From contig PHEU01000012.1 in NCBI GenBank assembly GCA_002841295.1, forward strand, positions 1-53,611: a DNA stretch of 53,611 bases, written 5' to 3'. Made by a program: the position numbers and the translations under genes. Below the pieces are notes generated by a model. That model was not told where the DNA came from, did no database searches, and saw only the letters and a list, made by a program, of their open reading frames with translations. Source of the DNA: Actinobacteria bacterium HGW-Actinobacteria-6 (lineage in GTDB: Bacteria; Actinomycetota; Coriobacteriia; Anaerosomatales; Anaerosomataceae). This document shows positions 43,301-48,480 of the stretch, one piece after another. Every line of letters starts with the position of its first letter. Positions within the stretch are counted from its first letter, which is position 1.

Positions 43301-43672
43301 ATGGACGGGCTTGTATGCGATTCCAAGGAGAAGGTCTTGGGGCTGCTTCGACGATTGTGTGACACCGCATTCGGACCGAGCGGAGCTACGATGCTTGCCG
43401 TTGTCGAAGGGACACGAACGCGGGTGGTTCTTGCAGTGCCGGATGGAGTCACGACCGAGCTGCCCCCGGGGGCTGGCGCGGAGTTCGTGTTCAGGCAAGA
43501 CCAACTGAGGACTCTGCTCGAGCTTGGCGTACCTGAATCAGCGCTTGCAACTGCAGCGTTTCGCGAACTGCTTGAGCAGCTTTCCGCTGCGTCTGCCGAC
43601 AAGCTCGGGTTCATGCGAGCGGTCAACCGAAGGCTTGAGGCCGGGCTGTCCGGTTCTCAGGTGGTGGGCTAG
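43301..43672 (+). CDS. hypothetical protein
   Basis: A 123-residue protein, mixed alpha/beta by eye, with a LAVVEGTRTRVVLAVPDG strand pair and a helical C-terminal half. No family recognised. A strong GGAGGGGG precedes the ATG. Its stop overlaps the Rrf2 regulator gene by 4 bases (CTAG). Confidence 0.55.
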   Translation: MDGLVCDSKEKVLGLLRRLCDTAFGPSGATMLAVVEGTRTRVVLAVPDGVTTELPPGAGAEFVFRQDQLRTLLELGVPESALATAAFRELLEQLSAASADKLGFMRAVNRRLEAGLSGSQVVG

Positions 43673-44085
43673 ATGAAATACATGGGCGCGCGCTCTGCAT
43701 CGATCGCGCTCTGACGGGCCGCGAGATCCGCAAGTGTGACCGAGGCAAGATGTTCAGACAGTACGGCCCCGGCTTGCCGCCATGCCTCCGCCGAAGCGAG
43801 GCCAACCGCCATCGGGGCATCAAACACGGCGCCTTCGATTGCCTCGACGATTTCGGCGAGCGTGATGCTGTCGGCGGGGCGAGCAAGCATGCACCCGCCT
43901 CCGGTTCCTCGTTTGCATTCAACCAGTCCGCGCTTCGCGAGGGAGGTTGCCTGCAGCTCCAGGAAACGTCTGGGTAGGCTGAGGCTCTCCGCCAGTTCTC
44001 CGGCTCCTGACAGAGCGCCCGGGGTCTGCTGTGCCAGCGCAGTCAAGAGGCGAAGTGAGTAGTCGAGGCGTTGTGATACGCGCAT
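43669..44085 (-). CDS. Rrf2-family transcriptional regulator (CymR-like)
   Basis: A 138-residue winged-helix protein: RLDYSLRLLTALA, LPRRFLELQATSLAKRGLVECKRGTGGGCMLARP and ITLAEIVEAIEG. It lacks the three-cysteine set of IscR-type Rrf2 proteins, so it is more like CymR, which represses sulfur genes together with cysteine synthase CysK. The gene follows cysK directly (one-base gap), the same pairing seen for cymR-linked loci. Control of the met/cys operon here is an inference. Confidence 0.85.
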   Translation of the reverse strand: MRVSQRLDYSLRLLTALAQQTPGALSGAGELAESLSLPRRFLELQATSLAKRGLVECKRGTGGGCMLARPADSITLAEIVEAIEGAVFDAPMAVGLASAEAWRQAGAVLSEHLASVTLADLAARQSAIDAERAPMYFI

Positions 44086-44086
44086 T

Positions 44087-45040
44087 TTATGCGATGCCCT
44101 CCCACAGCGGTGTAGACAGGTACCTTTCGCCGGTTGAAGGAGCTACCGTCACGATTGTGGTTCCTGCCATCTCCGGACGACTGGCTACCTCGATGGCGGC
44201 GACCACGTTTGCGCCTGAGGAGATGCCGACGAAGATCCCTTCCTCGGCGGCAAGTCGACGGGCCATTGCAATCGCTGCCTCGCCGGCAACCGGAAGAGCC
44301 TCATCCAGTTGGCTGAGGTCGAGCACGCCCGGTATGAAATTCGCCCCGATTCCCTGAATCAAGTGTGGGCCCGGGGTGGTCGGTTCCCCGCGGAGCCGCT
44401 GTCCGATGATTGCGGATTCGGCAGGCTCCACGGCTATCAGCCGGATGTCGGGGAAGCGCTCCTTCAGGTAGCGGCCGCCTCCGGTGATCGTGCCGCCGGT
44501 GCCCACTCCTGCAACGAAGGCTCCAGGGGTCGAATCACCCAGGGCCCGTTCGATCTCCGGGCCGGTGGTCTTGTAGTGAGAGGCGGGGTTGGCGGGATTG
44601 TCGAATTGCCCCGGGATGAATGCGTTCGGCGTGGATGCAGCTAGTTCCCTTGCGGCATCGACGGCTCCTTGCATGCCCAGGCCTTTAGGAGTCAGGACGA
44701 GCTCTGCACCATATGCAGCCAGGAGCTTGCGCCGCTCGACCGAGAAGCTTTCCGGCATCGTGAGGATGACGCGGTAGCCGCGCGCCGCGCCGATCATCGC
44801 AAGGGCGATGCCGGTGTTGCCGGATGTGGGCTCGATTATGACGGACTTGCCCGGGGTTATCAGGGCGCGCTGCTCCGCATCTGCGATCATGCCCCAGCCG
44901 ATGCGGTCCTTCACTGATCCACCCGGGTTGCGAGATTCGAGCTTGATGATGATGTTCGCTTTGAGCCCCGCAGATATGTTGTGAAGCTTTACGGCGGGCG
45001 TTCCGCCGATGGTTTCGACGATTGATGCGTGTGCGCTCAT
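44087..45040 (-). CDS. cysK: cysteine synthase (O-acetylserine sulfhydrylase)
   Basis: A 317-residue PLP enzyme with the PLP lysine in NPGGSVKDRI, phosphate loop GVGTGGTITGGG, and PTSGNTGIALAMIGAARGY. It makes cysteine from O-acetylserine and sulfide. ATG at 45040 is preferred to the one four codons upstream because GGGAG lies 6 bases before it. The downstream Rrf2 regulator may use CysK as a co-sensor. Confidence 0.94.
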   Translation of the reverse strand: MSAHASIVETIGGTPAVKLHNISAGLKANIIIKLESRNPGGSVKDRIGWGMIADAEQRALITPGKSVIIEPTSGNTGIALAMIGAARGYRVILTMPESFSVERRKLLAAYGAELVLTPKGLGMQGAVDAARELAASTPNAFIPGQFDNPANPASHYKTTGPEIERALGDSTPGAFVAGVGTGGTITGGGRYLKERFPDIRLIAVEPAESAIIGQRLRGEPTTPGPHLIQGIGANFIPGVLDLSQLDEALPVAGEAAIAMARRLAAEEGIFVGISSGANVVAAIEVASRPEMAGTTIVTVAPSTGERYLSTPLWEGIA

Positions 45041-45144
45041 GATGGCTCCCATCAGCGATACGGTTCTCTGAAGTCCACCTTACGTCGCCATGGCGTTGCC
45101 GACAAGGTGGGTAAGAGCACCAATAACATGAGAATAGAGAGTAT

Positions 45145-45801
45145 TCAGGCGATGGTGTGGTTGGGCGGTTGATCTGGCGCGGACCGGTCAGACGTGACGA
45201 TTGCCACAGCCAGCTCCGCACGCAGGTTCGCTGCAAATCGAACGGCATGGATACCTGCTCCGGAGATGTCTGGTGCGAGAGGCATCTCCCTCACGACGAC
45301 GCCTCCATTCGCTTGCACGAAATCCCGGAAATCCTTGATGGTCGTATGGTGAATGTTCGGGGTGTCGTACCAGCTGTGGGGAATGCTCCGAGATACAGGC
45401 ATCCGGCCGCGGAACGCCAGGTAGCCTCGAACGCGCCAATTGCCGAAGTTTGGAAACGACAGGATTCCGCTGGACCCGACGCGCAGCATCTCGCGAAGCA
45501 CGAGCGCCGGGTTGCGTACGATCTGTAGCGTCTGCGAGAGGATGACGACGTCGAACGATCCGTCGGGGAAGCCTGCCAGCCCGCGGTCGAGGTCGTCTTG
45601 CACGACCGAGAGGCCGCGCGCGATCGACGCCGCGATCCCTTCGGGCGTCAACTCGACGCCGCGGACGCGGCAGCCGCGTTCGTCGCGCAGGTAGGCGAGG
45701 AGCTCGCCGCTCCCGCAGCCGAGGTCGAGCACGCGGCTTCCCTCGGGCACGAGCCCGCCGATGAAACGGAGATCGGAGCGCAGGAACTGGGCGGCCGTCA
45801 T
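45145..45801 (-). CDS. metW: MetW methyltransferase-like protein
   Basis: A 218-residue SAM-methyltransferase-fold protein of the MetW family: VLDLGCGSGELLAYL (motif I), VILSQTLQIVRNPALVLREMLRV, FPNFGNWRVR and PHSWYDTPNIHHTT. MetW is found with MetX; its exact role in acyl-homoserine formation is unsettled. The ATG overlaps the metX stop by 4 bases. The last 25 residues are unusually polar. Confidence 0.93.
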   Translation of the reverse strand: MTAAQFLRSDLRFIGGLVPEGSRVLDLGCGSGELLAYLRDERGCRVRGVELTPEGIAASIARGLSVVQDDLDRGLAGFPDGSFDVVILSQTLQIVRNPALVLREMLRVGSSGILSFPNFGNWRVRGYLAFRGRMPVSRSIPHSWYDTPNIHHTTIKDFRDFVQANGGVVVREMPLAPDISGAGIHAVRFAANLRAELAVAIVTSDRSAPDQPPNHTIA

Positions 45802-46946
45802 GCTGCCTCACCTGCTCGCTTCGCGAGCTCGTCGGCGCAGACGCTCGCGAGGAACGGCGCGACGAACCGCGCCTGCTCGACCGGCTCCAGTAGGAATGCG
45901 TCGTGGCCGTACGGGCTCTCGATCTCGGCGAACGAGACTTCGGCGCCGGCGGACTGAAGGGCGTCGACGAGCTCGCGCGACTGGTAGGTGGGGAAGAGCC
46001 AGTCGCTTGAGAACGACAACACCAAGAAGCGCGCGTCGATGTCCGCGACAGCGTCGGCAAGCGTCGGGAAGCCGGCGCTCAGGTCGAAGTAGTCCATCGC
46101 CTTAGTCATGTAGAGGTACGTGTTGGCGTCGAAGCGTTCGACGAACTTGCGGCCCTGGTAGGCGAGGTAGCTCTCGACTTCGAACTCACTCACGAACTCG
46201 AAGGCGTGCTCCTCGCGCTCGCGCAGGCGCCGCCCGAACTTCTCGCGCATCGAGTCGTCGGACAGGTACGTGATGTGCCCGATCATCCGTGCGATGGCCA
46301 GGCCGTGTCCCGGCTGGCCGGACTCGTAGTAGTCGCCGCCCTTGAACGCCGGATCGCCGAGAATCGCCGTGCGGCCGACCTCGTTGAACGCGATCGCCTG
46401 CGCGCCGAGCCGCCACGTCGTCGCGATCGCGAGCACGCTCGCACACCGCTTCGGGTAGCGCTGTGCGAAGGCGAGCGCCTGCATGCCGCCCATCGATCCA
46501 CCTGCGACCGCCAGGAGGCGATCGATGCCGAGTGCATCGAGGAGTGTGGCAAAGACGTCCGCCATGTCTTCGATCGTGACCAGCGGGAAGCGCAGCGCGT
46601 ACGGCTCGCCGGTCGCCGGGTCGGTCGAGCCAGGGCCGGTCGTGCCGGAGCAGCCGCCGAGCACGTTCGCGCACACCACGAAGTACCGGTCGGTGTCCAC
46701 CGCTCGGCCGGGGCCGACGATGTCGCCCCACCAGCCCGCGCGCGGCTGGCCGGACGCGTCGGGGCCGCTCGCCACGTGCGAGTCGCCCGAGAGCGCGTGG
46801 CAGATGAGAATCGCGTTGCCGCCTCCGGCGTCGAGTGTGCCGAAGGTCTCGTGGGCGACCTCTATAGTCTCGAGCCGTCTGCCCGAGAGGAGTGTGTGGC
46901 CCTCCGGGAGCGAGAAGCTCCCGGAGGTGCCTGCAGGTGTGCCCAT
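45798..46946 (-). CDS. metX: homoserine O-acyltransferase
   Basis: A 382-residue alpha/beta hydrolase with the nucleophile in GGSMGGMQAL, the Asp in FSSDWLFP and the His in GHDAFLLE. It activates homoserine with acetyl-CoA, or succinyl-CoA in some members; presence of MetW leaves this open. It supplies MetY upstream in the operon. The start follows the metY stop by 3 bases. Confidence 0.94.
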   Translation of the reverse strand: MGTPAGTSGSFSLPEGHTLLSGRRLETIEVAHETFGTLDAGGGNAILICHALSGDSHVASGPDASGQPRAGWWGDIVGPGRAVDTDRYFVVCANVLGGCSGTTGPGSTDPATGEPYALRFPLVTIEDMADVFATLLDALGIDRLLAVAGGSMGGMQALAFAQRYPKRCASVLAIATTWRLGAQAIAFNEVGRTAILGDPAFKGGDYYESGQPGHGLAIARMIGHITYLSDDSMREKFGRRLREREEHAFEFVSEFEVESYLAYQGRKFVERFDANTYLYMTKAMDYFDLSAGFPTLADAVADIDARFLVLSFSSDWLFPTYQSRELVDALQSAGAEVSFAEIESPYGHDAFLLEPVEQARFVAPFLASVCADELAKRAGEAA

Positions 46947-46949
46947 GAC

Positions 46950-48251
46950 TTACGCCTGCTCGAGTGCCTGTGCGAGGTCGGCGATGATGTCGTCGATGTT
47001 CTCGATGCCGATGGAGAGCCGCACGAAGTCCGGTCCGATGCCTGCGAGCACGAGCTCATCGTCGCTCAGCTGCGAGTGCGTCGTGGTGGCCGGGTGGATG
47101 ATGAGCGACTTCGCGTCGCCCACGTTCGCCAGATGCGAGAAGAGCTCCACGTTCTCGATGAGCGCGCGGCCGGCATCCTGGCCGCCCTTGACGCCGAAGA
47201 CGACGACGCCGCCGTACAGATCATGCGACAGGAACTCGTCGGCGTTCGCCTTTGTCGGGTGATTCGGCAGGCCGGGGTACGTGACCCACGCGACCTTGGG
47301 ATGCGTCTCAAGATACTTGGCCACCGCGAGCGCGTTTGTGCTGTGCCGCTCGAGCCTCAGGGACAACGTCTCTATGCCGAGGAGGATCTGCTGCGCGTTG
47401 AACGGAGAGAGTGTTGCGCCGATATCGCGCAGGAGCTGCACGCGAAGCCGGATGCCGAACGCCACGTTGCCCAGACCGGGGAAGTCGCCGAAGACGTCCC
47501 AGAACTTGAGGCCGTGGTACGACGCATCGGGCTCGGTGAACTGCGGGAAGCGCCCGTTACCCCAGTCGAAGTTGCCGCCGTCGATGATCGCGCCGCCGAG
47601 CGACGTGCCGTGGCCGCCGATCCACTTGGTGAGCGACTCGACGACGATCGCGGCACCGTGCTCGATGGGCCGGCACAGGTAGGGCGTTGCGAACGTGTTG
47701 TCCACCACGAGCGGCACGCCGAGCGCGCGGCCCGCATCGGCCAGACCGCGGATGTTGGGAACGTCCAGGCGCGGGTTGCCGATGGTCTCGATGAACCACG
47801 CCCTGGTGGTGTCGTCGGTGGCGTCGATGAAGCCCTGGATGTCGGTGGGCTCCACGAAGCGTACCGTGATGCCAAGGCGCTTGAAGGTGTGCAGGAAGAT
47901 GTTCCAGGTGCCGCCGTAGAGCGACGTGGAGCTCACGATCGAGTCGCCGGAGCCGGCGAGGTTGAGCAGCGCGAGGTTCTCGGCAGCGTGTCCCGAGGCA
48001 ACGGCGACGGCCGCGGTACCACCGTGGAGCGCGGCGAGACGCTGCTCGAGCACGTCAGTGGTGGGGTTCATGATGCGGGAGTAGATGTTGCCAAACGCGC
48101 GCAGGCCGAAGAGGTCCGCTGCGTGGTCGGTATCCTTGAAGTTGTACGCGACCGTCTGGTAGATGGGGACCGCACGCGATCCGGTGGTGGGATCGGGGGT
48201 CGCGCCGCCGTGGACGGAAATGGTGTCGAAGCCGGGTGCCGAAGCGCTCAT
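46950..48251 (-). CDS. metY: O-acetylhomoserine sulfhydrylase
   Basis: A 433-residue Cys/Met-metabolism PLP enzyme. The PLP lysine is in ESLTKWIGGHGTSLGG; SRIMNPTTDVLEQRLAALHGG and the C-terminal HPATTTHSQLS are family hallmarks. It adds sulfide to O-acetylhomoserine to give homocysteine, a second route beside the DUF39 pathway at the window start. AAAGGA lies 8 bases before the ATG. Its leader encodes a Met-rich peptide. Confidence 0.95.
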   Translation of the reverse strand: MSASAPGFDTISVHGGATPDPTTGSRAVPIYQTVAYNFKDTDHAADLFGLRAFGNIYSRIMNPTTDVLEQRLAALHGGTAAVAVASGHAAENLALLNLAGSGDSIVSSTSLYGGTWNIFLHTFKRLGITVRFVEPTDIQGFIDATDDTTRAWFIETIGNPRLDVPNIRGLADAGRALGVPLVVDNTFATPYLCRPIEHGAAIVVESLTKWIGGHGTSLGGAIIDGGNFDWGNGRFPQFTEPDASYHGLKFWDVFGDFPGLGNVAFGIRLRVQLLRDIGATLSPFNAQQILLGIETLSLRLERHSTNALAVAKYLETHPKVAWVTYPGLPNHPTKANADEFLSHDLYGGVVVFGVKGGQDAGRALIENVELFSHLANVGDAKSLIIHPATTTHSQLSDDELVLAGIGPDFVRLSIGIENIDDIIADLAQALEQA

Positions 48252-48296
48252 GGGAAGATCCTTTCGTGTTTGTGTGAGAGGGAAGATGCCCGCGAC

Positions 48297-48404
48297 CTAC
48301 TGGCCGGCAGGGAGCTGGAGTCGCCCGGTTTCTGCGCATACGCGCAAAGACCCGGGCTGGGTCATCATCATCGCCATCATCATCACAAACAGGATCAGTG
48401 CCAT
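48297..48404 (-). CDS. Met-rich leader peptide upstream of metY (attenuator)
   Basis: A 35-residue ORF, 45 bases upstream of metY, opening MALILFVMMMAMMMTQPG. Seven of its first 14 residues are Met, with two ATG triplets (residues 8-10 and 12-14). GGGAGGTGA lies 11-14 bases upstream and GAGG 4 bases upstream of the ATG. A strong hairpin begins 9 bases after the last Met codon, and metYXW follows. This is the layout of ribosome-mediated attenuation, as for trp or his leaders, with Met as the sensed residue. No database family is known to me. Confidence 0.8.
   Translation of the reverse strand: MALILFVMMMAMMMTQPGSLRVCAETGRLQLPAGQ
48323..48357 (-). promoter_or_regulatory. leader hairpin after the Met codons
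   Basis: The transcript forms a stem of about 14 pairs with a 4-base loop: GCCCGG/CCGGGC at the base, then TGCGC-type pairing near the loop, with one mismatch and one bulged base. A ribosome stalled on Met codons 12-14 would cover the 5' arm. A competing stem (GCGAC with GTCGC at the leader stop) is possible. No U-run follows, so the switch may act on Rho access or on metY translation. Confidence 0.6.
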
Positions 48405-48435
48405 GGTGCCTCGGTTCACCTCCCTTGAGAAGTCG

Positions 48436-48480
48436 TTCAGCAATTCGCTGAAGGTATCAGCGAGTCCGGTGCCATGTCCA
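48436..48480 (-). promoter_or_regulatory. met operon promoter with dyad at the start site
   Basis: On the minus strand TGGACA (48480-48475, 5/6 to -35) and GATACC (48458-48453, 3/6 to -10) are 16 bases apart. TTCAGC-N5-GCTGAA (48436-48452) is a dyad right at the expected start site, a possible operator for the Rrf2 regulator. Confidence 0.45.

Follow-up and report, generated by a model that had tools for sequence, protein, structure and literature searches.

Methionine control is as a rule attributed to riboswitches, T-boxes or repressors. For attenuation by a translating ribosome, methionine is an awkward amino acid, since it is also the first residue of every protein. In Campylobacter jejuni, the leader MetL precedes metBA, carries three Met codons and was proposed to couple transcription to charged Met-tRNA (PMC3847290), and its translation, with a ribosome peak at the start codon, was detected by Ribo-seq (PMC11955535). 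MetL is found in C. jejuni, C. coli and C. doylei only, and its short RNA ends just after the stop codon (PMC3847290). Among actinobacteria, a metL has been proposed before metNIQ of Streptomyces lividans (MSTTSDRTPATEATTTPGARCMCRRMCAF), which has two internal Met codons and no run, and for which termination is stated to be unclear (PMC8079986). When Actinobacteria were surveyed in 2005, no conserved RNA structure was reported ahead of their methionine operons (PMC1262725).

Here, we analyzed a stretch of 53,611 nucleotides (contig PHEU01000012.1, referred to below as the window) from Actinobacteria bacterium HGW-Actinobacteria-6, in which a Met-rich leader open reading frame precedes the methionine gene metY. 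We consider it likely that this leader is a methionine-responsive, ribosome-mediated attenuator of metYXW.

The leader and its gene cluster in the window

To describe the locus, the minus strand was re-read from 48404 to 48297, and the 35-codon frame of the preliminary description, with ATG at codons 8-10 and 12-14, was recovered (Table 1). At a Met frequency of about 2.5%, the chance probability of at least six Met in 13 codons was estimated by hand to be near 4e-7, in keeping with the earlier view that the Met density is far above chance. The leader ORF is separated by 45 nt from the metY ATG (48251). The cluster metY-metX-metW-cysK-rrf2 lies on one strand, and its genes were named from NCBIfam models; the reported position of the leader ahead of metY-metX-metW was confirmed by matches over the cut-offs for all three genes.

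The signals around the leader were recovered with some corrections. The reported ribosome binding site is present as an SD-like element, although its 14 nt spacing is longer than usual; in relatives where the motif was scored, the spacing is 13-15 nt. For the promoter, placed about 40 bases upstream, a TGGACA-18-TACCTT pair ending 46 nt before the ATG was found, and the same layout occurs in the nearest relatives (L002-L004), but a stricter consensus promoter scan of the window reported none. From these elements, the leader transcript would be predicted to start near 48444. The strong hairpin after the Met codons also stands, except that its gap is 5 nt and not 9.

Two further features of this region were observed. 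A 740-codon open frame (window 46206-48428, plus strand) runs antisense to metX-metY and the leader, and the Met run reads His-rich in it; this frame is probably a by-product of high G+C. A palindrome, TTCAGC-GAATT-GCTGAA (TTCAGC-N5-GCTGAA), lies at window 48436-48452, over the predicted transcription start. It was considered as a repressor site and rejected, being absent from L002-L004.

Table 1. Features of the leader and the met-cys cluster, in window coordinates.
Feature	Position	Strand	Details
-35-like TGGACA (inferred promoter)	48475..48480	-	consensus match only
-10-like TACCTT	48451..48456	-	18 nt spacer; 46 nt from leader ATG
SD-like AAGGGAGGTG	48417..48426	-	GGAGG 14 nt from leader ATG
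Methionine leader ORF	48297..48404	-	35 codons; peptide MALILFVMMMAMMMTQPGSLRVCAETGRLQLPAGQ, then stop
Control codons ATGATGATG-GCG-ATGATGATG	48363..48383	-	codons 8-14; Met conservation in 37 leaders
Hairpin A:B	48323..48357	-	GCCCGG/CCGGGC as outer stem; last Met codon 5 nt before 5' arm
Hairpin C:D	48289..48311	-	CCTGC-c-GGCC / GGTC-GCGGG; leader stop codon at loop; tail begins CATCTTCC
metY, O-acetylhomoserine sulfhydrylase	46950..48251	-	TIGR01326, E 1.1e-193, over cut-off
metX, homoserine O-acetyltransferase	45798..46946	-	NF001209, E 1.7e-147, over cut-off
metW	45145..45801	-	TIGR02081, E 1.1e-70, over cut-off
cysK, cysteine synthase	44087..45052	-	TIGR01139, E 2.5e-123, over cut-off
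Rrf2-family regulator, end of met-cys cluster	43669..44085	-	TIGR00738 over cut-off; CymR (cysteine metabolism) model below

Conservation of the leader ahead of metY and metN

The order was searched in 69 genomes, about half of which carry metY of this type, and 34 genomes contributed the 37 metY loci for which upstream DNA was available; contig records that bear the leader have Anaerosomatales, Coriobacteriia or Actinobacteria in their titles. All 37 loci retained the leader with an in-frame start, 4-7 internal Met codons and a strong hairpin, and in every one the last Met codon lay exactly 5 nt before the GCCCGG arm. The usual form of the peptide is M.....F[VA]MMMDMMMT[QR]PGS. When positions were counted relative to the last Met codon, with position 0 as the anchor, Met occurred at -6, -5, -4, -2, -1 and 0 in 31, 26, 37, 35, 32 and 37 of the 37 leaders, respectively. 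The Met codons had an entropy of 0-1.3 bits, versus 2.3-4.0 bits for codons -12 to -7, and are thus far better conserved than most flanking codons. The distance from the start to the last Met changed by whole codons only (12, 13, 14 or 16), and a reversed control pattern gave no match in an order-wide scan of the 69 genomes. The preliminary description had proposed conservation in relatives as its test, and the outcome favored it: all 37 metY loci preserve the ORF, its Met codons, the spacing and the hairpin, and most other codons drift. It is worth noting that leaders L008 and L012 have one extra hairpin base and stop early yet keep both the Met run and the hairpin, indicating that the C-terminal part of the leader peptide is dispensable. 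The leader was not found upstream of more distant metY homologues in other families. Three genomes (G014, G024 and G054) carry two metY loci each, and every locus has its own Met leader.

A pattern scan of the whole phylum found matches in twelve genomes of family f22, which belongs to the same class. The matches that were read were intergenic, some 130 nt ahead of metN, which encodes the ATPase of the methionine importer. A Met leader was detected before metN in families f18 (MKSAVAHITMMMVMEMPKPGHSAVSCARRTDGETGRLH), f19 (MNFEFVHSMMMCMPKPGFVGVRADTQA and MSSRFVHITVMCMPKPGTDGARADAQA) and f22 (for example, MFTTAAHMMMVMMMPSPGHFAMPSDHRGHGETGRLR), as well as in G024 (MSRETTSMMMTMPMPEPGFIGTCACPGLSL), a genome from the same family as the window. 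As before metY, the last Met codon of the metN leaders is 5 nt from the arm, here GCC[CT]GGG. Judging from sequence, most of them appear to be leaderless, starting at or near the 5' end of the transcript; a -10-like element is found about 7 nt before the ATG. For the two proteins tested, the best NCBIfam match was MetN; the scores stayed below the cut-off, as the proteins fall about 100 residues short of the model length. In L160, metN is followed by a MetQ gene. The module was not seen before some metN genes of f18, f19, f20, f21 and the order itself. The candidates L183 and L209 were rejected on reading as not being metN leaders.

Several observations were made beside these leaders. L163, L165, L175 and L176 have only two internal Met codons and keep the exact spacing and the hairpin; they may represent a minimal sensor or a decaying one. 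The MetN proteins of L107:632-1381 (minus strand) and L160:549-1295 (plus strand) are about 249 aa long and cover only positions 1-241 of the 343-position model, so that they seem to be without the C-terminal domain; in E. coli, the MetN C-terminal domain mediates inhibition by methionine. In L140-L158, a short hairpin-like stretch that recurs, in many cases as ATCGAGCGGAG..CTCGTGAT, contains the metN RBS and start codon of f18 and f22; the attenuator model does not explain it. A looser class-wide pattern also brought up a recurrent motif, ATGATGCGGATGGC.AG.CCCGG(G/A)CCCGGG, in f18 and f22 genomes; ATGATGCGGATGGC.AG.CCCGG is a different kind of motif, not the leader, and was set aside.

Leader folding and the proposed mechanism

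The folding of the leaders was then compared. The 38-nt A:B segment of the 37 metY leaders had a mean z of -3.95 versus shuffles (range -5.6 to -2.3), and the B arm was at a fixed offset from the last ATG in 37/37, with one base added in L008 and L012. When metY and metN leaders were taken together, the outer stem was paired in 85% of cells, compared with at most 56% for slid versions, and two-sided C-G to U-A changes were present in 5 sequences at one pair and in 20 at another. In this combined set, two doubtful metN rows (L144 and L210) were left out, and some B arms (e.g., L002, L014, L018 and L044) were placed manually at the constant offset or represented by identical rows. Its covariation was 0.203 versus 0.174 +/- 0.010 in shuffles, 2 of 500 of which scored as high; the relatedness of the sequences weakens this test, and metN B arms were picked for best pairing. 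In the metY set alone, covariation was not above shuffles, the outer stem being nearly invariant and the inner stem changing register. Measured from the last Met codon, the 3' end of A:B is about 43 nt away in metY leaders and up to 79 nt away in metN leaders.

In 25 of the 37 metY leaders, the second hairpin, C:D, begins 52-53 nt past the last ATG; it is in moderate excess over shuffles (mean z 1.6). Its arms showed 95% pairing with their own partner versus 52% with arms of other sequences, the former figure being favored by the choice of arms as best stems. In many leaders the stop codon falls in or near the C:D loop, so that a terminating ribosome would cover C:D, unlike in the trp layout. 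No canonical terminator was found in the window before metY, and the U-tract of C:D there is weak (e.g., ATCTTCC, TATCATCC); one SAM riboswitch and two T-boxes from this order have runs of five T, compared with which the metY tails are poorer. Ahead of metN, the second hairpin is overlapped in L107, L158, L155 and L153 by GGCGGG..CCGCC, which resembles a terminator and has a T-rich tail, and a ribosome placed at the stop codon favored the terminator-like fold in L107, L155 and L158 but not in L108, L110 and L157. Masking of arm A lowered mean C:D pairing from 0.82 to 0.70, 0.56 and 0.46 with 13, 16 and 19 nt masked, respectively. This response was uneven, ranging in individual leaders from no change to complete loss and being mixed among metN leaders, and B:C pairing competed strongly in some leaders and not at all in others. 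Taken as model results, these folds lend modest support to an alternative pairing.

Three features of an attenuator were found together: a leader ORF with a start signal, a conserved run of Met codons and a hairpin whose 5' arm falls within the footprint of a stalled ribosome. In the proposed mechanism, the leader ORF would be translated ahead of metYXW, and a shortage of charged elongator Met-tRNA would slow the ribosome on the Met run. The size of the ribosome footprint is established, and with the last ATG in the A site the ribosome would shield about 13 nt, ATGACCCAGCCCG, among which is most of the 5' outer arm of A:B. With this arm covered, A:B would not form fully, the downstream leader would refold, and expression of the operon would rise; when Met is plentiful, the ribosome would run through and the leader would fold to a non-permissive form. 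The finding of one Met-codon leader on two different methionine-supply operons is, as far as sequence comparison goes, strong evidence for methionine sensing by ribosome position. The earlier proposal of a ribosome-mediated methionine attenuator thus gains support as a Met-codon sensor, from both the 37/37 metY conservation and the use before metN. Met-codon sensing is well supported by comparison; ribosome stalling, the block of A:B and the control of downstream folding we infer. Among the points against the attenuator, Met starvation would also lower the initiator tRNA, and hence the leader would be started less often.

A variant of the attenuator, which we regard as possible though rather unlikely, is wired opposite to trp in several families: the ribosome at the stop codon would cover the 5' arm of C:D, and a terminator would form, like the GGCGGG..CCGCC and T-rich tail of L107 and L158. 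Both a stalled ribosome and the lack of any ribosome would then leave the operon on. If true, this default-on logic would solve the loss of initiator tRNA for the leader start under methionine starvation.

The same leader and Met codons could instead have a translational output, the leader ribosome altering access to the metY or metN RBS. The metY RBS is weak, and no good U-tract follows C:D; furthermore, the second-hairpin loop of many metN leaders holds a CTCCG that in some folds can pair with CGGAG, the RBS of metN, although CTCCG is not kept in all leaders (L152 and L166). Folding gave no support for RBS masking before either gene, since mean openness of the RBS barely changed with ribosome position (0.44, 0.45, 0.47 and 0.48 for metY; 0.41, 0.44, 0.43 and 0.40 for metN). 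A translational output is doubtful, and we consider transcription attenuation the more likely of the two.

Arrest of the ribosome by the nascent peptide (MMMxMMMTxPG or MxMPKPG) in response to methionine or SAM, in the way that the TnaC arrest peptide responds to tryptophan, is improbable. Its appeal lies in the peptide core M-x-M-[TP]-x-P-G, which is conserved throughout the class and has Pro-Gly directly behind the Met run, and in the Asp between the Met triplets, kept in 31/37 metY leaders. Yet the underlying ACC/CCC-NNG-CCC-GGG doubles as the hairpin's 5' arm and is conserved at the nucleotide level, residues N-terminal to the Met run drift, the number of internal Met varies from 2 to 7, and L008 and L012 have lost the C-terminal part. 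Still less credible, and in our judgment very unlikely, is an undescribed riboswitch that would sense through the hairpin, the Met codons being incidental to it: the hairpin is kept as strictly as the Met codons, but it has no Rfam match, A:B is a single stem-loop of variable length with no obvious conserved pocket, and the frame and Met codons are kept though the ATG codons lie outside the stem. A chance or low-complexity ATG repeat without function, such as slippage can create, is refuted by the 37/37 conservation, the in-frame changes and the repeated link to two Met operons, and its probability is negligible.

Comparison with known systems

No family of Rfam 15, the SAM riboswitch and T-box included, matched the metY or metN leaders, and both were rejected as explanations of the leader on this ground. 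The SAM-I riboswitch and the T-box likewise exert RNA control of methionine genes, and they are present elsewhere in this order: SAM riboswitch matches occurred in 60 of its 69 genomes, mostly below the curated cut-off, and T-box matches in 66. The two SAM riboswitches that were read sit upstream of a gene reading as metK.

Like the trp, his, leu, ilv, thr and phe attenuators, the leader preferred here as a methionine attenuator is rich in codons for the end product and is followed closely by a hairpin; unlike in those classical systems, the sensed residue is also the initiator, and the stop codon often lies in the second hairpin. A leader conserved in several families of a class and common to synthesis and import operons lets one ask how a cell tells a shortage of elongator Met-tRNA from one of initiator Met-tRNA, and it supplies a ready sequence signature for unannotated methionine regulation.

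With metL of S. lividans, the leaders share an actinobacterial setting before the methionine importer and, in most metN leaders, what appears to be a leaderless start. That metL is a weak case with no Met run. The preliminary description was right that methionine is usually sensed by other means, although MetL of C. jejuni is an earlier similar proposal (PMC3847290). The likeness to MetL, drawn from its description, is that of a short leader of Met codons before methionine biosynthesis genes, which in MetL is translated; the differences are another phylum, up to seven internal Met, a fixed hairpin, and occurrence in several families and before two operons. Compared with a literature that was mostly non-subscription, the present leader is thus not the first methionine leader to be proposed, and it is far more widely conserved and structurally defined.
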